Virus record (IMG/VR): IMGVR_UViG_3300037587_000515
Span: 1 to 41,704 of that record
Reading direction: 5' to 3' (one strand)
From: a virus
DNA: 41,704 nucleotides
Positions 10,442 through 41,704 of this stretch are shown here, in pieces. The position numbers and the translations under genes are program-made. Every line of letters starts with the position of its first letter. The stretch's first letter is position 1. A model generated the notes under the pieces. It had not been told where the DNA came from, made no database searches, and saw nothing but the letters and a program-made list of their open reading frames with translations.

Positions 10442-11461
10442 ATGGCTTGGGAGTTTTACACTGCTACTACCGCCACCGGCCCAACAGGCCCCACCGGCCC
10501 CACAGGGCCACAGGGGACAGCAGGAACAGCGGGTACTGGCTCCACCGGACCCACCGGACCCACCGGACCCCAAGGTACGGCTGGAACCTCAGGAACCGCT
10601 GGAACCGGCCCTACTGGACCAACAGGCCCCACCGGCCCTACCGGCGCTCAAGGAACCGCAGGCACGGGTCCTACCGGCCCAACCGGACCGACAGGTCCTA
10701 CCGGGCCTACGGGGCCGACGGGAGCGCAGGGCACCGCCGGCACGGCAGGTACGGGTCCGACAGGTCCCACCGGCCCTACTGGACCAACCGGAGCGCAGGG
10801 GACTGCGGGTACAGCGGGGACCGGCCCAACAGGCCCCACCGGCCCTACCGGCGCTCAAGGGACTGCTGGAACCGCTGGTACTGGCCCCACGGGGCCGACG
10901 GGTCCCACGGGGCCGACGGGCTCGCAAGGAACGGCGGGTACAGCGGGTTTGACTGGCCCAACCGGCCCTACCGGGGCACAGGGTACGGCTGCTCAACAGA
11001 CTGGCCCGACAGGGCCTACCGGCCCCACAGGTCCTACAGGGCCGAGCGGGCCTACTGGCTCGACAGGAGGTACTGGCCCTACGGGGCCAACTGGCGCAGA
11101 CGGCCGCTCCATCAACTTCGTCATCGACGGTGGAGGTAGTGCCATTGCCACAGGTGCCAAGGGCGTGCTCAGGATGCCCAACGTCGCCCTTACCCTGGCG
11201 AGGGGGGCGCTCTTGGCCGACAAGATTGGCAGCATCAAAGTGGATATCTGGAAGGACGGCTACGCGAACTTCCCGCCGGACAACACCGACTCCATCTGCG
11301 CTGGCCATGAGATGGAGATCGCCAGCGCGATCAAGGACGAGGATATGACCCTTACTGGCTGGGGTACGACGCTCGCCGCTAGGGACATCTTGAAGTACAA
11401 CGTCGATTCCTGCACGACCATCACCCGTTGCACCGTGTCCCTGGAGGCTGAGGAGACCTAG
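10442..11461 (+). CDS. Collagen-like tail fibre with Gly-Pro-Thr repeats
   Basis: This 339-residue protein has a short head ('[12 protein letters not shown]'), then about 200 residues of Gly-X-Y triplets at roughly 13-219, mostly GPT with GAQ, GTA, GTG and GSQ, and one small break ('AAQQT'). The C-terminal domain of about 115 residues is shared with the protein at 6650-7501. Collagen-like phage fibres form a triple-helical stalk that ends in a tip domain. Nearly every third residue in the triplets is Thr, the residue glycosylated in GPT collagens of spores (BclA). The next gene encodes a probable glycosyltransferase. Confidence 0.85.
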
Positions 11462-13074
11462 TGAAAGACGCCGCTTACTATGACGAGGTGTACCGGGGCC
11501 AGTACCACGTAGACGAAGGCCGCGTCCAGGTCGTCGCGGATCTCTGCCGTGGAAAGGTTCTCGACATCGGCTGCGGCGATGGGGTACTGGCGGAGCACTG
11601 CGACTCCTATCTGGGGCTCGATTTCTCGCAGGCGGCTATCGACCTGGCCCGCAAGCGCAACCACGGCAGCGAGTTCCTGCTGTACGACTTCCTGGCTGAT
11701 GTCGGGGATGACTTGCCCGCCGGCCCGTGGGACACCATCGTCCTGGGCGAGCTGCTAGAGCATATCGACGGGGGTGCCCAGACGATGCTTTTCCGCAAGA
11801 TCAAGGCAGTGCTCGCGGACGCTGGCACCGTGGTTGCTACGACGCCTAACGGCTCGGCCATACCCGATGAAGCCCACATAAGGACATTCACGCTAGAGCA
11901 GATGAGGGCCAGCCTTCGCCTCTTCGGGTCAGTCTGCACACACGGCTACTCGGACAAGTACGTTATCGCCAGCGCCCACCGGGCCGGACGCCCGAAGCTC
12001 TCCGTCGTCCTCATCGTGAAGAATGAGGAGGAGTTGCTCCCGGCCTGCCTGGAGTCCCTGAAGGGCATCTGGGACGAGCTGGTCATCGTAGACACTGGCT
12101 CTACGGACAAGACGGTGGAGATCGCCCGGTCCTTCGGAGCCCGCATCGGCCACTTCCCCTGGCAGGACGACTTCGCCGCCGCCCGCAACTACGCTGAGAG
12201 CCTCTGCTTCGGGGAGTATCTTTATTGGCAGGACGGCGATGAGATTCTGCTGGAGGGCAAGGATGCCATTCGTGAGATCGTGGAGAAGGGTGAGGCCGAC
12301 GGCGTGGCGCCGATGTTGATCTTCAAGCGCGATGCAACCGGCGCCCCTCAGAGCACATTTATCCGGCAGGAACTCCTTCACAAGAACAATGGGGCCTGGC
12401 GCTGGCACGGTGCAGCCCACAACTGGCTCAACGGGCCGATCCGAACAGCGGCACCGCAGATCGTGGTCGAGCACCTGAGCCGCCCGAGCGGCGACCGGCC
12501 CAACCATACGGACATCTTCGATGCTCTTCGGGCCAACTGCGACGATCCAGCGGGGCCGATTGAGCGTAGCCTCTTCTATTTGGCCCGCGAGCATTTCTAC
12601 AAAAAGCACTACCACGAGACGATAGCCCTCATTGCCCAGATGTTGCAGACCCCAGTGTCCTGGCCGGTCCAGCGGTCGCGTGGCTGCATTATCGCCGGGG
12701 ACTGCTGGCGGGCGTTGGGGAACCAGGACGCGGCGGCGCAGGCATACCTCAGAGCGATCTCCGAGTGTCCGGTGACGGCCGAGCCTTTCTTCTGTCTGGG
12801 GAACCTCCGCTACGACCAGCAGAAGTGGGCAGAGGCCGCCGCTTGGTTCAAGGCATCTACTATGTTCGAGCCGGGCGGCTTCTTCTGCGACCTGAGCATC
12901 TACGAGTGGCGCCGTTACGATCTCCTCGCTCGCTGTCTCTACAGGGTTGGGCGGAAGGAGGAGGCGCGGCTGTATGGGGCGAAGGCCCTGATGGTGCGGC
13001 CTGACCAGGAGCACTTGAAGAAGAACATGGCGTATTACACAGGAGCGGGACAAGATGCTTCAGGCACTCACTGA
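11461..13074 (+). CDS. SAM methyltransferase - GT2 glycosyltransferase - TPR fusion
   Basis: This protein has 537 residues from GTG 11461, which overlaps the TAG of the collagen gene. Residues ~30-170 form a class I methyltransferase: motif I 'VLDIGCGDG' at 33-41, then 'YLGLDFSQ', and 'VLGELLEHIDGG'. Residues ~178-380 form a family 2 glycosyltransferase: 'LSVVLIVKNEEELLPACLES', 'VIVDTGSTDKTVEIA', and the DxD-type 'WQDGDE' near 257-261. The rest (from ~390) has paired helices like TPRs ('ALGNQDAAAQAYLRAISE', 'RYDQQKWAEAAAWFKAST'), as in OGT-like or SPINDLY-like enzymes that grip repetitive proteins. It probably glycosylates, and may methylate, the adjacent fibre, or else host surface glycans. 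Confidence 0.85.
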   Translation: MKDAAYYDEVYRGQYHVDEGRVQVVADLCRGKVLDIGCGDGVLAEHCDSYLGLDFSQAAIDLARKRNHGSEFLLYDFLADVGDDLPAGPWDTIVLGELLEHIDGGAQTMLFRKIKAVLADAGTVVATTPNGSAIPDEAHIRTFTLEQMRASLRLFGSVCTHGYSDKYVIASAHRAGRPKLSVVLIVKNEEELLPACLESLKGIWDELVIVDTGSTDKTVEIARSFGARIGHFPWQDDFAAARNYAESLCFGEYLYWQDGDEILLEGKDAIREIVEKGEADGVAPMLIFKRDATGAPQSTFIRQELLHKNNGAWRWHGAAHNWLNGPIRTAAPQIVVEHLSRPSGDRPNHTDIFDALRANCDDPAGPIERSLFYLAREHFYKKHYHETIALIAQMLQTPVSWPVQRSRGCIIAGDCWRALGNQDAAAQAYLRAISECPVTAEPFFCLGNLRYDQQKWAEAAAWFKASTMFEPGGFFCDLSIYEWRRYDLLARCLYRVGRKEEARLYGAKALMVRPDQEHLKKNMAYYTGAGQDASGTH

Positions 13075-27060: not shown

Positions 27061-27090
27061 CGAGCGGCGCCAGAGACTCAGACGCCCCGC

Positions 27091-27126
27091 TTGACGCAGG
27101 GCGAAGGAGCGTGCTAGTGTTAGCAC
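27091..27126 (+). promoter_or_regulatory. Promoter with operator palindrome over the -10
   Basis: TTGACG (27091-27096), 18 bases, TAGTGT (27115-27120) preceded by TGC (an extended -10). The -10 lies in the palindrome GTGCTA-GTGT-TAGCAC (27111-27126), a likely repressor site. Transcription would start near 27127 and run into the structured block. A second perfect inverted repeat, TACAACCC / GGGTTGTA (27135-27142 / 27163-27170), lies just downstream. Confidence 0.6.
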
Positions 27127-27249
27127 AACGTGAATACAACCCTGATTATAGCACACGGTTTCGGGTTGTACCACCAGCGGAAGTCTGGGCGGTCATAAGT
27201 CCCTGCCTGTTGGTAGGCTCCACCTACCCCAGCCCGCTATGCGCCAGTT

Positions 27250-27514
27250 GACTTAGGCCCGGTGGAGCCCTGGGAAGCTTACGGAGCTAAGCCAGCGTTG
27301 CCAACAACGGCATTGGGCAGGCGTGAAGGAACGTGGTAGGGGACTTGACCCCTTCGCCCCTATCCCCGACAAGAGTGACGCTCCGCCTTTGGGGCTGGCC
27401 GGTTCCGCGGAGTAGGGCTCAGTCGGTTGACGGCGATGGACGGTTTGCCGGAGCAGAGCCAGCCACATGTGACGCGGGTTTGTGACTAAAATCGCAGACC
27501 CGTGAAGGGGGAGG
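27250..27514 (+). ncRNA. Large structured noncoding RNA upstream of HNH gene (HEARO/OMEGA-like candidate)
   Basis: The non-genic stretch 27061-27538 carries nested complementary pairs: GCCCGGT/ATTGGGC (27257-27263/27312-27318) enclosing GCTTA/TAAGC (27277-27281/27288-27292) and CGTTG/CAACG (27296-27300/27305-27309); TAGGGG/CCCCTA (27337-27342/27357-27362); CTCCGC/GCGGAG (27381-27386/27407-27412); GGCTC/GAGCC (27416-27420/27456-27460). GGCTGGC (27393-27399) with GCCAGCC (27458-27464) would be a pseudoknot competing at its edge with the last. The end is a 13-pair hairpin (27473-27485/27492-27504, loop CTAAAA). The HNH gene begins 34 bases later. HEARO RNAs (the OMEGA RNAs of IsrB) have this size and position, and the GAAGGGGGAGG end recalls them from memory only. 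Confidence 0.6.
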
Positions 27515-27538
27515 TTTGCCTCGAAGGAAAGGCGACGG

Positions 27539-27892
27539 ATGGGCACCTGTGCAGGTGAAGATTGGCAACCGGGTACCGGTGTGTGTGGGGCTTGTTCCCG
27601 TCCTACAAAGAACAAGTGGTTCTGCAGGAGTAGGAGCGCTGACGCAGATAGTTGCCGCAACGTTTGGGCGCGTAACCACTGGTGGGGGTACGCGAGGAGG
27701 GCGGCCATGGAGCGTGACGGCCAGAGCTGCGTTCGTGTCGGCTGCCAGAGTCCTGGGCGCTTGGAGGTTCATCACATTCACCCCCTTGGGGACGGCTCCC
27801 ACTCCCAGACGAGTTGCCGTCATCACCAAGAGAACCTGGAGACGCTTTGCCATGACCACCATGTCGCCGTCACTACTTCGACAAAGCGGTGA
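27539..27892 (+). CDS. Compact HNH endonuclease with N-terminal zinc finger
   Basis: This 117-residue protein has an N-terminal zinc finger: 'VCGACSRPTKNKWFC' with a later 'DSCRNVW'. The nuclease core is 'ARRAAMERDGQSCVRVGCQ', then 'LEVHHIHPLGDG' (catalytic His pair), then 'HHQENLETLCHDHH', matching the H-N-H order with the Asn in 'ENL'. It has no RuvC domain, unlike IsrB/IscB. It is encoded directly after the structured RNA. It may be a homing nicking enzyme, a packaging nuclease, or an RNA-associated nuclease. The ATG has only a weak AAGGAAAGG site; a TTG 23 bases upstream in another frame sits behind GGGGGAGG. Confidence 0.85.
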   Translation: MGTCAGEDWQPGTGVCGACSRPTKNKWFCRSRSADADSCRNVWARNHWWGYARRAAMERDGQSCVRVGCQSPGRLEVHHIHPLGDGSHSQTSCRHHQENLETLCHDHHVAVTTSTKR

Positions 27893-28219: not shown

Positions 28220-28480
28220 GTGACCCAGCCTAAGTGCCGTAACTGTGAGACTGAGATCAAGGAACGCCCTAAGCGGGTGGGCGATCTCTTCTGGGGCGAG
28301 AAGAAGGATGGAGATCCGCTGCTCATGGTGGCGAAGCCGCATTTCCCCACCTGTTCTGGGCACCCGGAGCGGCCCAAGAAGCTGCCGGCGGACAAGGAAG
28401 CAGACTTCCTACGCGACCGGGGCTACTCGGAGGAGCTGATAGCGCAGGCCCTCAAGGAAGCCCAGGCACCGCCAGGCTAG
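28220..28480 (+). CDS. Hypothetical protein with a zinc knuckle
   Basis: This protein has 86 residues from GTG 28220. 'QPKCRNCETEIKERPKRVGD' near the start, then 'HFPTCSGHPE' and a C-terminal helix 'FLRDRGYSEELIAQALKEAQ' like a UBA or resolvase tail. Its last four bases overlap the end of a reverse-strand gene (tail to tail). Confidence 0.6.
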   Translation: MTQPKCRNCETEIKERPKRVGDLFWGEKKDGDPLLMVAKPHFPTCSGHPERPKKLPADKEADFLRDRGYSEELIAQALKEAQAPPG

Positions 28481-29610: not shown

Positions 29611-29985
29611 TCAGTCGGCATGCACTCCTGTATCTAACACAACAATTGCCAACCACGGCTGGTCAGGTATGGGGTTCTCAGCTGGGCTTGCTGGCAGGTG
29701 CAGCCGCACATGGCAGGTACGACAGAGTAATTGTAGGTTGGCCAATTCGTTGTAGCCTTCGGCCTTTGTTGTGTCTCGGTGGTGTACATGGCCTGAGTGA
29801 CCTACTAGCAGCTGGCAGCACTCGCAGCGGTAATGTGCTCGACGGATAGCAAACGCTCGCGTACGTACATGTGGCTTTAGAAGCTGCTGGGCACGTGTTA
29901 CGGATAGGCCAAGCTTTGCCGCCACCTGGGAATTACTTAGCCCTAGCGTCCGAAGCTGAATCGCCTCTTCTTGTCTCTTGCTCAT
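29611..29985 (-). CDS. HNH endonuclease with helix-turn-helix domain
   Basis: This protein has 124 residues from ATG 29985 (reverse strand). An N-terminal helix-turn-helix 'EEAIQLRTLGLSNSQVAAKL' then 'GLSVTRAQQLLK' resembles recombinase or AP2/homing linkers. The nuclease part follows: 'YRCECCQLLVGHSGHVHHRD' and 'ELANLQLLCRTCHVRLH', giving the His, Asn and His of an HNH fold with two zinc pairs. It could be a homing nuclease that recognises DNA by its helix-turn-helix. Confidence 0.8.
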   Translation of the reverse strand: MSKRQEEAIQLRTLGLSNSQVAAKLGLSVTRAQQLLKPHVRTRAFAIRRAHYRCECCQLLVGHSGHVHHRDTTKAEGYNELANLQLLCRTCHVRLHLPASPAENPIPDQPWLAIVVLDTGVHAD

Positions 29986-30100
29986 TGGTAATCTTCTCTT
30001 GCTGACCTTTCCACCGCCTGCTTTTGCACGCCGGACATTCCTGGGGCTTGACCACTCTTGGCGTCCATTCGTGGTCACACTTGTTGCACCGCAGTAGCAT
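29933..30100 (-). CDS. Small zinc-ribbon protein, first gene of leftward operon
   Basis: This protein has 55 residues from ATG 30100. 'MLLRCNKCDHEWTPRVVKPQ' followed by 'CPACKSRRW' is a zinc ribbon of the rubredoxin-like type common in phages. The C-terminal charged tail overlaps the HNH gene by 53 bases. GGAG lies upstream, and the operon promoter is 35-63 bases upstream. Confidence 0.65.
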   Translation of the reverse strand: MLLRCNKCDHEWTPRVVKPQECPACKSRRWKGQQEKITNEQETRRGDSASDARAK

Positions 30101-30382: not shown

Positions 30383-30418
30383 TTGACAACAGCAGCCCGC
30401 ATGGTATCATGGGGGGTG
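30383..30418 (+). promoter_or_regulatory. Rightward promoter for HNH gene, near-leaderless
   Basis: TTGACA (30383-30388), 16 bases, TATCAT (30405-30410) preceded by TGG. ATG 30419 starts eight bases after the -10, so the mRNA begins at or within a base or two of the start codon, and no ribosome site is possible. Confidence 0.65.
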
Positions 30419-30868
30419 ATGGCTGACTGGGCAGAGCGATTCTGGACAAGGGTTGAGTTCAACGGCCCCATTCCTGAATATGCGTTCCCTCTAGGGCCGT
30501 GCTGGCTATGGACAAGTTACCAGAACAGCCGGGGGTATGGTGCCTTTCGCACCGACGGCATAAAGCGCGGTGCGCACTGCGTCTCCTATGAGTTCTGCAT
30601 TGGCTCGATCCCTGTGGGCCTAGAACTAGATCACCTCTGCCGTGTTCCGCTCTGCGTGAATCCAGACCACCTAGAACCCGTAACTAGCCGCGAGAACACG
30701 CTGCGTGGGGAGGGCTGGACTGCACAGCAGGCTCGGAAAGTGGAGTGTACTTACAGACACCCATTCACGGAGGGGAATACCTATGTCAACAAGAAAGGTC
30801 ATCGCCGTTGCCAAGACTGCCACCGTAGGCAAGAACGAGAGCGCTATCAACGCAAATTGGTCGGCTAG
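30419..30868 (+). CDS. HNH endonuclease (HNH_3-like) upstream of terminase
   Basis: This protein has 149 residues from ATG 30419. 'GPCWLWTSYQNSRGYGAFR' and 'GAHCVSYEFCIGSIPVGLEL' precede 'DHLCRVPLCVNPDHLEPVTS', the His-Asn-His core; the 'C.NP.HLE.....EN..R' pattern is typical of phage HNH_3 proteins. A C-terminal zinc motif ('CTYRHPF', 'RCQDCHRRQERERYQRK') follows. HNH proteins next to terminase genes (HK97 gp74) help DNA cutting in packaging. An intron-free homing role is an alternative. Confidence 0.85.
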   Translation: MADWAERFWTRVEFNGPIPEYAFPLGPCWLWTSYQNSRGYGAFRTDGIKRGAHCVSYEFCIGSIPVGLELDHLCRVPLCVNPDHLEPVTSRENTLRGEGWTAQQARKVECTYRHPFTEGNTYVNKKGHRRCQDCHRRQERERYQRKLVG

Positions 30869-31538: not shown

Positions 31539-31974
31539 GCCCAAGCCGCCGGGCGCCCGCCGCTCGGTGGTATTCCCCGTGGTGAGGCAGAAGATCATCG
31601 ACGCTCTGCGGAACGGTGCGCAGCGCACTGACGCCGCAACCTTCGCTGGCATCACGCCGAGCCTGCTCAAGCAGTGGGTTTACCGGGGGAGGCAGGGCAT
31701 GGAGCCGTACATAACTTTCGTAACTGAGGTCGAATCTGCTGAGGCCGAGGCCGTGCTACGGATGACGCAGATCGTCTTCACCGCTGCGGCGAAGGACTGG
31801 CGGGCGGCGTTGGAATGGCTCAAGCGCAACCGCCGCGATGTCTGGGGCGATAAGGTAGAGGTACGGATAGAGGACGTGCGCGATCAGGCGCGGCGTATCG
31901 CTAGGGAGCGTGGGCTGGATGAAGCGGAGATGGTAGCGCGAGCAGAGGAGATATTGCGCGGTGCCGCCACCTAG
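31528..31974 (+). CDS. terS: Terminase small subunit candidate
   Basis: This protein has 148 residues from ATG 31528. An N-terminal helix-turn-helix ('IIDALRNGAQRTDAATFAGI', 'TPSLLKQWVYRGR') is followed by a helical oligomerisation region ('EVESAEAEAVLRMTQIVFTA') and 'ALEWLKRNRRDVWGDKVEV', a motif I know from small terminases ('WLE.R.P..W'). It binds packaging-start DNA. It overlaps the large subunit gene by 14 bases. Confidence 0.85.
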   Translation: MARKPKPPGARRSVVFPVVRQKIIDALRNGAQRTDAATFAGITPSLLKQWVYRGRQGMEPYITFVTEVESAEAEAVLRMTQIVFTAAAKDWRAALEWLKRNRRDVWGDKVEVRIEDVRDQARRIARERGLDEAEMVARAEEILRGAAT

Positions 31975-33460
31975 CGCCGTTGGCATCGCTATCGAAGCTG
32001 CCCTGGACGTGGAGACTCGCCAGGCACAGGCTAGACAGTGTTACCCCGATGATCCCGTGGGCTTCATCCGCGAACGCCTGAGCGAGTTCATGTGGAGCAA
32101 GCAGGTCGAGATCGCCGAGGCGGTCGTAGTCCATCGCCGCACGGCTGTCCAGTCCTGCCATGACATCGGAAAGTCCTGGATCGCAGCCCGTCTCGCTGCC
32201 TGGTGGCTTTCGGAGCATGAGCCTGGCGAAGCCTTCGTGGTCACGACGGCACCGAGTGGCCCCCAGGTCCGGGCCATCCTCTGGCGGGAGATTGGCCGTG
32301 CGCACGCTAAGGGGCGGCTATTTGGGCGCGTCACTCAGACCGAATGGTGGATGCAGGTAGGTGGGCCCGGCCAGGAGCATGAAGAGATCGTCGCCTTCGG
32401 GCGCAAGCCGTCTGACTACGACCCGGCTGCCTTCCAGGGCATCCACGCTCGGTATGTCTTGGTCATCATCGATGAGGCTTCAGGTGTGCCTGGGGCGCTT
32501 TTCGACGCTGCGAATTCTCTCACCACGAACGAAGAGAGCCGCATCCTCGCCATCGGGAACCCGGACGATCCAGCAAGCCACTTCTGCGCCAAGGTGCTAA
32601 AGCCCGATTCTGGGTGGCACGTCATCCACGTCGATGGCCTCAAGTCGCCGAACTTCGACAACAACGAAGAGGTCCCCGACTACCTCCGCCCCTTGCTACT
32701 CGCCCCAGTCTGGGTAGAGGAGGCTCGGCGCGACTGGGGTGAGGGTAGCCCGCTGTGGCAGTCCAAGGTGCGCGGCCTCGTGCCGGAGGATACGAGCGAC
32801 GGCGTGATCCCGCTCTCATGGCTGCGCCGCTGCCAGGAAGAGCACAGGTGGGCGCCGGAGCAACTCGTGCCTATCGAGCTGGGTGTGGACGTCGGTGCCG
32901 GCGGCGACTGGACGGTCGTTCGTGAACGCCGCGGCGTGAAGGCGGGGCGGACTTGGCGAGCCCGGACCCCGGAGCCCCAGGAAGCCAGCGGCCTCATCAT
33001 GGAGGCGATCCGCGAGACGGGCGCTGTGTCGGTGAAGGTGGACGCTATCGGTATCGGCTGGGCCATCGTCGGGATGTTGGAGGAGGCATTGACGCGTAAC
33101 GGGAGCCGGAGCGGGCCGGCGATTCACGCGGTCAATGTCGGCCAGGGTGCGCCGAATCCCGAGCGGTTTCCCAAGCTGCGCGACCAGGTGTGGTGGGAGA
33201 TCGGCCGCGAGCTGTCGCAGGCGGGCGGCTGGGATCTCGGCGACCTAGACGATACAACGCTCGCCCAGCTCATCGCGCCGCGGTACAAGGCGGATGCCAG
33301 CGGCCGCGTGAAGATCGAGCCGAAAGACGATACCCGGAAGCGCCTAGGGCGCAGCCCCGACGATGCCGACGCACTACTCTTGGCCTATTACGTGCCGCCG
33401 CCTATGCCGGTGGAGGGCACGCTGGTCTATGACGATCCGGTGGGCATCAGTCCGGTGTAG
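31961..33460 (+). CDS. terL: Terminase large subunit
   Basis: This protein has 499 residues from GTG 31961. The ATPase part has a Walker-A-like 'SCHDIGKSWIAAR' near residue 65, and a Walker B 'YVLVIIDEASGV' near residue 166, followed by 'ILAIGNPDDPASHF' (coupling motif). The nuclease part has 'LGVDVGAGGDWT', 'VKVDAIGIGW' and a final 'DDADALLLAYY', the three acidic clusters of the RNase H-like fold. It pumps and cuts the genome. The type (headful or site-specific) cannot be read from sequence alone. Confidence 0.95.
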   Translation: MPPPSAVGIAIEAALDVETRQAQARQCYPDDPVGFIRERLSEFMWSKQVEIAEAVVVHRRTAVQSCHDIGKSWIAARLAAWWLSEHEPGEAFVVTTAPSGPQVRAILWREIGRAHAKGRLFGRVTQTEWWMQVGGPGQEHEEIVAFGRKPSDYDPAAFQGIHARYVLVIIDEASGVPGALFDAANSLTTNEESRILAIGNPDDPASHFCAKVLKPDSGWHVIHVDGLKSPNFDNNEEVPDYLRPLLLAPVWVEEARRDWGEGSPLWQSKVRGLVPEDTSDGVIPLSWLRRCQEEHRWAPEQLVPIELGVDVGAGGDWTVVRERRGVKAGRTWRARTPEPQEASGLIMEAIRETGAVSVKVDAIGIGWAIVGMLEEALTRNGSRSGPAIHAVNVGQGAPNPERFPKLRDQVWWEIGRELSQAGGWDLGDLDDTTLAQLIAPRYKADASGRVKIEPKDDTRKRLGRSPDDADALLLAYYVPPPMPVEGTLVYDDPVGISPV

Positions 33461-37984: not shown

Positions 37985-38986
37985 ATGCCTGTAAACCTGT
38001 ATAACATCACCGGGCGGTCGAGCGGGGAGGAAATCTCCTCGACCGGCGAAGGGCGTCACCTCACCTTTGAGGAAAGCGTTCTCAATCACCCGACCCACAC
38101 TGATGGCTTCGTAGAGGCGGGCGATCCCGTTGTCATCGGAGAGAACATCATCGGCGTCGCCTTCGACGAGGCTGCGGCGGCTACGGACCTAATCGCCATC
38201 GATACCGAGGGCATCTGGGCTCTCACCTGTACGGCGACCGACGAGGACGGCAACAGCGCGATCGCCGTGGGTGACGAGCTGTACATCAACAAGACGACTG
38301 CCATCATCAGCAAGAACCCCAACAAGAACACCCACGCATTCTTCGGCTACGCACTGACCGCGCTTGCCACCGGCACGACCGATGTGGTTGCCGTCAAGGT
38401 TCACTGGGATCCCGATGACGCCGAAGAGCTGGTTGGCACCGCCGCTGCGCCCTACGCGCTCGCCGCGGCCAACAACGGGCGGGAGTACCGCTACCGCTCG
38501 ACCGCGACCCAAGGCGACATTCGCGGCATGTACATGGCCCTGGGCTTGAACGGTGTCGGGGGTGCAGGCGAGGCTGTGCGGGCCCGCACCATTGTGGAGG
38601 CGGTCGGCGTTGCCGGCGGCGTACACGGACTGCATGGAGGCCTTGAGTTCGATGCTGACGGCGAGCTGACTGGCCTAGGCGTTGGCGTGCGAGCCACCTT
38701 CATGGCGCCTAACCGTTCGCACGCCGGGGGCACGATCTCTGGTGGCATGTCGGAGCTGTGGGCGGAGGGAGCCAGCACGGACTACACCGCGTTCACGATG
38801 CACTCGATCCACCGTTTCGCCAACTCGGGCGAAGCGACGGGTCGCGGGACGGCAGACAACGTGTTCGAGTTCGTCGACCTGACGACGGATCAGTACGAAG
38901 GGAACACCGACACGCCGACCCAGGCGTTGCGCGTCATCATCAACGGCAACGTGCGCTACATCATGGTCTCGGAGGCGCAGGCCTAA
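37985..38986 (+). CDS. Capsid decoration protein (DUF2190-like N-terminus)
   Basis: This protein has 333 residues from ATG 37985. The N-terminal ~130 residues match DUF2190-like head proteins: 'HTDGFVEAGDPVVIGENIIG', 'AIDTEGIWALTCTATDEDGN', 'AVGDELYINKTTAIIS', 'AFFGYALTALATGTTDVVAV'. A C-terminal beta-rich domain of about 200 residues ('REYRYRSTATQGDIRGMYMA', 'SGGMSELWAEGASTDYTAFT') occurs in head fibre or decoration proteins and may be exposed on the capsid. Confidence 0.75.
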   Translation: MPVNLYNITGRSSGEEISSTGEGRHLTFEESVLNHPTHTDGFVEAGDPVVIGENIIGVAFDEAAAATDLIAIDTEGIWALTCTATDEDGNSAIAVGDELYINKTTAIISKNPNKNTHAFFGYALTALATGTTDVVAVKVHWDPDDAEELVGTAAAPYALAAANNGREYRYRSTATQGDIRGMYMALGLNGVGGAGEAVRARTIVEAVGVAGGVHGLHGGLEFDADGELTGLGVGVRATFMAPNRSHAGGTISGGMSELWAEGASTDYTAFTMHSIHRFANSGEATGRGTADNVFEFVDLTTDQYEGNTDTPTQALRVIINGNVRYIMVSEAQA

Positions 38987-39309
38987 TGGACTTCTTCGCT
39001 GAGACCGAGAAGGGCAAGCAAGACCACTTCGCAGCCATCGGCAAGATGGCGTATCGGAGGCAGGCGATCAGCGTCCAGATCGAGCGGCTTCAGGAAGAGG
39101 CCGAAGACCTGGACGGCATGATCGCCCGTCACGAGGCGGCCGTCGCGGAGCTGGAGCGGGTGCAGCGCAACTTCAACACCTACCTGGCGGTGAAAGAAGG
39201 GGCGCTGACAACCGAGCAGGTTGCGAGCGGCATACGAGCAGGCGCCAACGGTGCCGAACCGCTTCCCATCGGAGTACACACAGAACAGGAGGAGAAGACC
39301 AATGCCTGA
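38986..39309 (+). CDS. Coiled-coil head protein
   Basis: This protein has 107 residues from ATG 38986. The centre is a long coiled coil ('QAISVQIERLQEEAEDLDGM', 'IARHEAAVAELERVQRNFNT'). It ends just inside the capsid gene. Its size and place suit a capsid assembly aid. It has no known family by eye. Confidence 0.6.
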   Translation: MDFFAETEKGKQDHFAAIGKMAYRRQAISVQIERLQEEAEDLDGMIARHEAAVAELERVQRNFNTYLAVKEGALTTEQVASGIRAGANGAEPLPIGVHTEQEEKTNA

Positions 39310-41467: not shown

Positions 41468-41704
41468 TGGTTGCGGCCTTCTCGACCACCATCACTGGAG
41501 CGGACCAAGTGAGGCGGCGCTTGGGCGCGGCGGCCAGTGCCATTGATGGCCGTGGACTTCTACCAGCGCTCCGTGCGGCCGCGATGGTGGCTCAGAATGA
41601 CGCGAAGCGCCGTGCCCCAGTTCTGACAGGCACGCTGCGCCGGTCGATCCATATCGAAGACAAAGGCAGCCATGTCGTCGCTGTCGGCACGAATGTGCCC
41701 CTGC
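41467..41704 (+). CDS. HK97 gp10-like protein, N-terminal part
   Basis: The gene starts at ATG 41467 and runs off the window. The N-terminus reads 'MVAAFSTTITGADQVRRRLG', then 'GRGLLPALRAAAMVAQNDAK', the long N-terminal helix of the family. It continues at base 1 after removal of the terminal repeat, ending at 294. The final four bases of the window change the frame's last residues and should be ignored. Confidence 0.85.
   Translation, partial: MVAAFSTTITGADQVRRRLGAAASAIDGRGLLPALRAAAMVAQNDAKRRAPVLTGTLRRSIHIEDKGSHVVAVGTNVPL
41575..41700. repeat. Terminal direct repeat (circle overlap), copy 2
   Basis: This is the second copy of the 126-bp terminal repeat and matches bases 1-126 exactly. Removing one copy gives a unit of about 41,574 bp. 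The trailing bases 41701-41704 diverge from the continuation after copy 1 and are probably an assembly end error. Confidence 0.9.

Follow-up and report, generated by a model that had tools for sequence, protein, structure and literature searches.

HEARO RNAs (RF02033) are the OMEGA RNAs of IsrB and IscB, nucleases for which a RuvC domain with bridge helix is a defining criterion (PMC9581776; PMC9755519). GOLLD and ROOL are large structured non-coding RNAs of phages and prophages whose function is unknown (PMC12286853). Phage HNH endonuclease genes frequently lie within group I introns, and free-standing phage endonucleases are often under hairpin control; seg43 of Aeromonas phage 25, for example, has a very stable hairpin directly upstream of an exposed ribosome-binding site (PMC2988022).

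Here we describe a locus in a virus record from IMG/VR, 41,704 bases in length (the window, to which all coordinates refer), that shares some features with each of these systems. Like HEARO and OMEGA RNAs, the RNA that we propose is a few hundred nucleotides long and lies upstream of an HNH open reading frame, but it matches no HEARO covariance model, the reading frame lacks RuvC, bridge helix and PLMP regions, and RNA and reading frame occur independently of one another. The resemblance to GOLLD and ROOL is that of a structured non-coding RNA encoded by a phage; GOLLD, however, often exceeds 800 nt, whereas the window RNA would measure about 460 nt and is of unproven complexity, and GOLLD and ROOL often lie near tRNA islands, whereas the window RNA has no Rfam match and no tRNA genes were found in the window. 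Free-standing phage HNH homing endonucleases (the T4 mob genes and relatives) offer a third parallel, a small HNH gene set among phage genes and preceded by a hairpin, but the 13-pair hairpin of the window does not sequester the predicted ribosome-binding site, and homing and cleavage are putative here. The HNH proteins of Gordonia Jujuvirus phages (for example Frokostdame gp71) are 39 to 42% identical to that of the window and have the same Cys-rich N-terminus and HNH core, but their genes differ in that they sit in packed operons and no RNA precedes them.

The phage and its relatives

By gene content (terminase, head genes) the record belongs to an uncultured tailed phage. Its first 126 bases are repeated exactly and in direct orientation near its end (1-126 = 41575-41700); given this terminal redundancy of the assembly, the genome, of about 41.6 kb, is probably complete. 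The nearest relatives of the terminase large subunit (31961-33460) found in IMG/VR are in the records L002 (78% identity, best segment) and L003 (80%). Among cultured phages with a related terminase, those of Actinobacteria predominate (32 to 43% identity in the matches listed).

Several other features of the genome deserve mention. Two further HNH genes, of other families, lie at 29611-30078 (minus strand) and 30383-30868 (plus strand), giving three HNH genes within 3.4 kb of one another, upstream of the terminase. The strongest local fold of the genome (39001-39150; z -4 to -6, both strands) is located within a small gene (38986-39309) flanked by head genes. In the tail and lysis region, a single open reading frame (11461-13074) combines a methyltransferase-like N-terminus with a glycosyltransferase part. 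A collagen-like protein with GPTGPTG repeats, probably tail- or fibre-related, is encoded at 10442-11461. In Glutamicibacter phage BIM BV-113, an unannotated 835-base gap (positions 438-1272 of the fetched locus, L060) lies immediately upstream of the terminase gene and has no match to the RNA model described below.

Coding content and folding of the gap

The gap (27061-27538, 478 bases) runs from the stop codon of an 85-aa open reading frame to the start of the HNH gene. Codon scores are negative in all six frames and a codon-based gene chain places no gene there; the stretch is non-coding, as the original prediction, made from the sequence alone, had stated. A protein remnant was considered and rejected, there being no coding signal and no PHROG match for either a 151-aa minus-strand reading frame or a 95-aa frame. 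No close DNA relatives of the stretch were found among phages and plasmids, and searches with exact patterns in IMG/VR and GTDB contigs returned nothing or chance 16-17-mers without extended similarity. Neither an intrinsic terminator nor a sigma-70 promoter was found on the plus strand of the region.

Folding statistics of the gap as a whole are unremarkable. Its 480-nt fold is no better than chance (z -0.99 against shuffles), as is the corresponding gap of L002 (z -1.41). Within the window gap, the sole exceptions are the region of the 3' hairpin and one stretch of the minus strand. The original prediction had placed a structured RNA of about 290 nt directly upstream of the HNH gene, but the 291 nt adjoining that gene fold with a z of only -0.58, and the conserved domain described below, missed by that prediction, is about 350 bases away from the gene. 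Neither does the number of complementary stems, on which that prediction had leaned, exceed chance convincingly, as 15 pairs of 7 bases compare with 8.3 expected and are reached by 5% of shuffles. Its proposed pseudoknot survives only as a complementarity: GGCTGGC (27393-27399) can indeed pair with GCCAGCC (27458-27464), but is predicted to do so in an ordinary nested helix with a pair probability of 0.9 to 1.0.

A hairpin domain conserved in a related phage

A sensitive BLAST comparison of the spacer with the fetched loci produced one alignment worth pursuing, between 27072-27165 and L002:2211-2301 (66% identity). A covariance model (R1) was built from the window sequence alone over 27079-27188, comprising four hairpins and 24 pairs on the plus strand. 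Searched over 408 kb, its sole credible match outside the window was L002:2218-2326, at 27.3 bits (E 0.0015); a sequence-only model of the same stretch scores 14.3 bits there, so that structure adds about 13 bits. In the resulting alignment, which comprises two sequences and is fitted to the structure and hence favours covariation, 6 of the 24 pairs are changed on both sides in L002, none is changed on one side and 3 are broken; sliding the partners by 1 to 3 columns leaves 0 to 1 double-changed pairs. As a check that does not fit the folds to each other, both full spacers were folded separately, and 17 of the 24 aligned pairs were present in each, compared with a mean of 1.1 and a maximum of 9 shared pairs for 500 shuffles of the L002 segment. 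The 110-nt 5' domain is common to the two phages, and its helices have been kept through compensatory changes. It is on these changes (6 of 24 pairs, two sequences, fitted alignment) that its inclusion among structured phage non-coding RNAs in the broad sense is based, and not on the stems listed in the original prediction, whose general claim of a structured RNA is borne out by conservation in a second phage.

The hairpins contribute unequally to this signal. H1 (27084-27102; GCCC/GGGC, with a conserved CGCTTNAC loop) and H2 (27111-27126; GTGCTA/TAGCAC, in L002 GTGGT/ACCAC) each have one compensatory and one broken pair, and H1 is absent from the unconstrained minimum-energy fold of the window. 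H3 (27130-27174; GTG-AA-TACAACCC/GGGTTGTA-C-CAC) has four compensatory pairs and one broken pair and is predicted in every full-length fold; its loop of 16 to 20 nt (20 nt in the window) has UAUA..CACA..GUUU in common between the two phages. H4 (27175-27187; CAG/CTG) is invariant in both sequences and hence provides no covariation evidence. All four are on the plus strand.

Homology with L002 probably continues beyond the 5' domain, as judged from alignment scores: a global alignment of the whole spacer with L002:2212-2656 lies 5.0 sd above shuffles (0 of 300 as good), and the excess is 2.4 sd once the 5' domain is removed. Over the remaining 330 nt, a long-range helix and a loop-loop pairing or pseudoknot can be drawn at matching places in both phages, but are not significant. 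The helix, a weak candidate for closing a middle domain, would pair 27191-27203 with 27339-27350 on the plus strand and has a counterpart at a similar place in L002 (AGCCGTCTCC/GGAGACGGCT; duplex p 0.13 in the window and 0.03 in L002).

We compared the gap region and its L002 counterpart with Rfam using cmscan with lax filters, accepting E values up to 10. This returned a few weak matches, all far below gathering scores, and HEARO (RF02033), group I and group II introns, GOLLD and ROOL were not matched in either phage at this threshold; the conserved RNA is in no Rfam family. Searches of the other phage records with R1, including cultured phages with a related terminase or portal, gave no match, and a two-sequence model (R2) found nothing convincing among phage records that again included relatives by terminase or portal (best E 0.8). 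The stretch 27079-27188 is probably a conserved structured phage RNA, and probably a new one, on the modest comparative evidence of two known members.

Genomic context and the HNH gene

The L002 match opens a non-coding gap that is about 510 bases long and, like that of the window, begins just past a stop codon. A syntenic marker gene follows the RNA in both phages (28220-28480, plus strand); it has 33% identity with L002:3680-4027 over 76 aa (E 1.35e-4, from a small comparison without correction) and begins 1159 bases after the RNA start in the window and 1468 bases after it in L002. Between RNA and marker, the window has the HNH gene and a DUF3850/ASCH-type gene, and L002 has other small genes; no relative of the HNH gene was found in the L002 record, where the RNA precedes an unrelated gene. 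At the corresponding place in L003 the RNA is absent, the stretch being full of genes and without a model match. As L002 has the RNA without the HNH gene and L003 lacks the RNA, the occurrence of the RNA varies independently of that gene.

The HNH gene itself (27539-27892, plus strand) encodes 117 aa with a Cys-rich N-terminus and an HNH domain and matches PHROG HNH families (E 1e-10), in agreement with the original prediction. The catalytic His-Asn-His residues of its Gordonia relatives are kept (H79, N99 and H108). Its codon usage is atypical, and its poor score on the phage's own usage suits a foreign gene. In addition to the Gordonia phage proteins, its closest relatives are in two IMG/VR loci, L022 and L023 (46 to 47% identity over part of the protein); none was found in GTDB genome contigs. 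There is a 4-base overlap between the HNH gene and the preceding gene in the Gordonia phages Frokostdame and Guacamole, in L022 and L023 open reading frames run up to the HNH gene with no gap upstream, and R1 has no match in the Gordonia, L022 or L023 records. With the relatives inspected lying in packed genes and without the RNA, the HNH gene is evidently not dependent on it. The coupling of RNA and nuclease that had been proposed for this locus, and against which HNH homologues lacking the upstream region were to count, is refuted by these homologues, and contradicted by the L002 RNA as well: the presence of the RNA does not follow the HNH gene. Going by sequence comparison, the best reading of the HNH gene is that of a putative free-standing endonuclease gene that stands downstream of the RNA by chance.

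Alternative explanations

We considered whether the stretch might serve the HNH gene as a cis-acting 5' leader and control its translation, with the terminal hairpin acting as do those of phage homing endonuclease genes such as seg43 (PMC2988022). The 13-pair hairpin of the original prediction is present (27473-27504, plus strand, CTAAAA loop) 34 bases before the HNH ATG, so that the AAGGA-ATG start region follows closely, and because of it the 3' part of the gap (27365-27540) has a moderately unusual fold that is better than 199 of 200 shuffles (z -2.86). Hairpins of 12 or more pairs are found in 3% of shuffles, and this one competes with an alternative hairpin (27494-27519). Against a leader function, it does not cover the AAGGA and no counterpart was seen in L002. 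Moreover, some 350 nt separate the conserved domain from the HNH start, in L002 that domain stands before an unrelated gene, and because downstream genes differ between the phages, control in cis is less likely. We regard a leader function for the stretch as unlikely; the 13-pair hairpin may be a matter separate from the RNA, and could regulate the HNH gene in addition to it.

It is also improbable, in our estimate, that there is no functional RNA and that the similarity to L002 is what remains of a decayed gene, or marks a conserved short peptide, the compensatory pairs then arising from chance and fitting bias. Such a view would accommodate the small sample of two sequences and the near-chance folding energies. 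It would also fit the distribution of mismatches in the first 63 aligned bases (12, 7 and 3 by codon position), which agrees with the frame of the upstream gene, and the continuation of that frame past the stop codon (27061-27117 and L002:2212-2256), which reads as similar peptides (ETQTPRLT and ETKTPRFT) until a TAG in both phages. Against this, stops and negative codon scores occur in all frames, and four of the six double changes fall in H3, past the TAG at which the frame in question ends (window 27115). The structural model also gains 13 bits over sequence, and one-sided changes are lacking among the 24 pairs. The similar peptides may merely reflect conservation of the RNA.

The chances that the functional RNA is instead an antisense RNA, on the opposite strand over 27061-27350, appear small. 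That strand is unusually stable here (z -3.55, 0 of 200 shuffles) with a well-defined predicted ensemble, and no 290-nt grid window across the genome, on either strand, falls below -2.5. The stretch was, however, one among several local windows tested, the minus strand of the L002 gap has no such excess (z -1.53), and the surrounding genes are on the plus strand in both phages; the compensatory pairs do not distinguish the strands.

A group I or II intron carrying the HNH gene, of which a group I intron-like element had been named as an alternative from the outset, is very improbable: phage HNH genes are often found in group I introns (PMC2988022) and the element, with a copy in L002 but none found in L003, looks accessory, but intron models failed to match either phage even at an E value of 10, no split gene was recognised around the gap, whose flanking genes differ between window and L002, and the L002 counterpart has no endonuclease inside or adjoining it. 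Least credible is the HEARO/OMEGA reading of the original prediction, a guide RNA with a miniature HNH nuclease, which as an obligate RNA-HNH pair is refuted by the L002 RNA without an HNH gene and the HNH relatives without the RNA; the position before an HNH reading frame and a weak likeness to IscB (19 bits over the HNH core only, with an NCBIfam cut-off of 175) speak for it, but RF02033 is not matched and the 117-aa protein, which hits HNH families only, has no RuvC, bridge helix or PLMP region.

Proposed function and significance

Our preferred explanation, to which we assign a probability of roughly 0.6, is that the gap encodes a structured non-coding phage RNA on the plus strand, in the direction of the early genes, and that the HNH gene has merely settled downstream of it. 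The RNA would be about 460 nt long (27061-27520), as suggested by the missing coding frame and the L002 alignment, if its ends are taken to be the stop codon of the upstream gene and the final hairpin ahead of the ribosome-binding site of the HNH gene. It would be co-transcribed with the small early genes or transcribed from an unrecognised promoter, and may function as an RNA by itself, whether in trans or as a scaffold, by means of the 5' domain, where the UAUA..CACA..GUUU loop of H3 would be a likely contact site for protein or nucleic acid. The HNH gene would be a free-standing gene of the homing endonuclease type.

More tentatively, and with somewhat less than even confidence, we propose that the window and L002 RNAs are the first described members of a new class of large structured phage RNA, which would move or be lost independently of its neighbours, act in trans during infection and be unrelated to GOLLD, ROOL, HEARO and introns. 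For this locus a false lead is removed, in that the neighbouring HNH gene does not encode an RNA-guided nuclease in miniature. Large structured phage RNAs are few and mostly without known function, and the two-member candidate family suggested here is testable, as it is anchored by a covarying domain of 110 nt that can be searched for directly.
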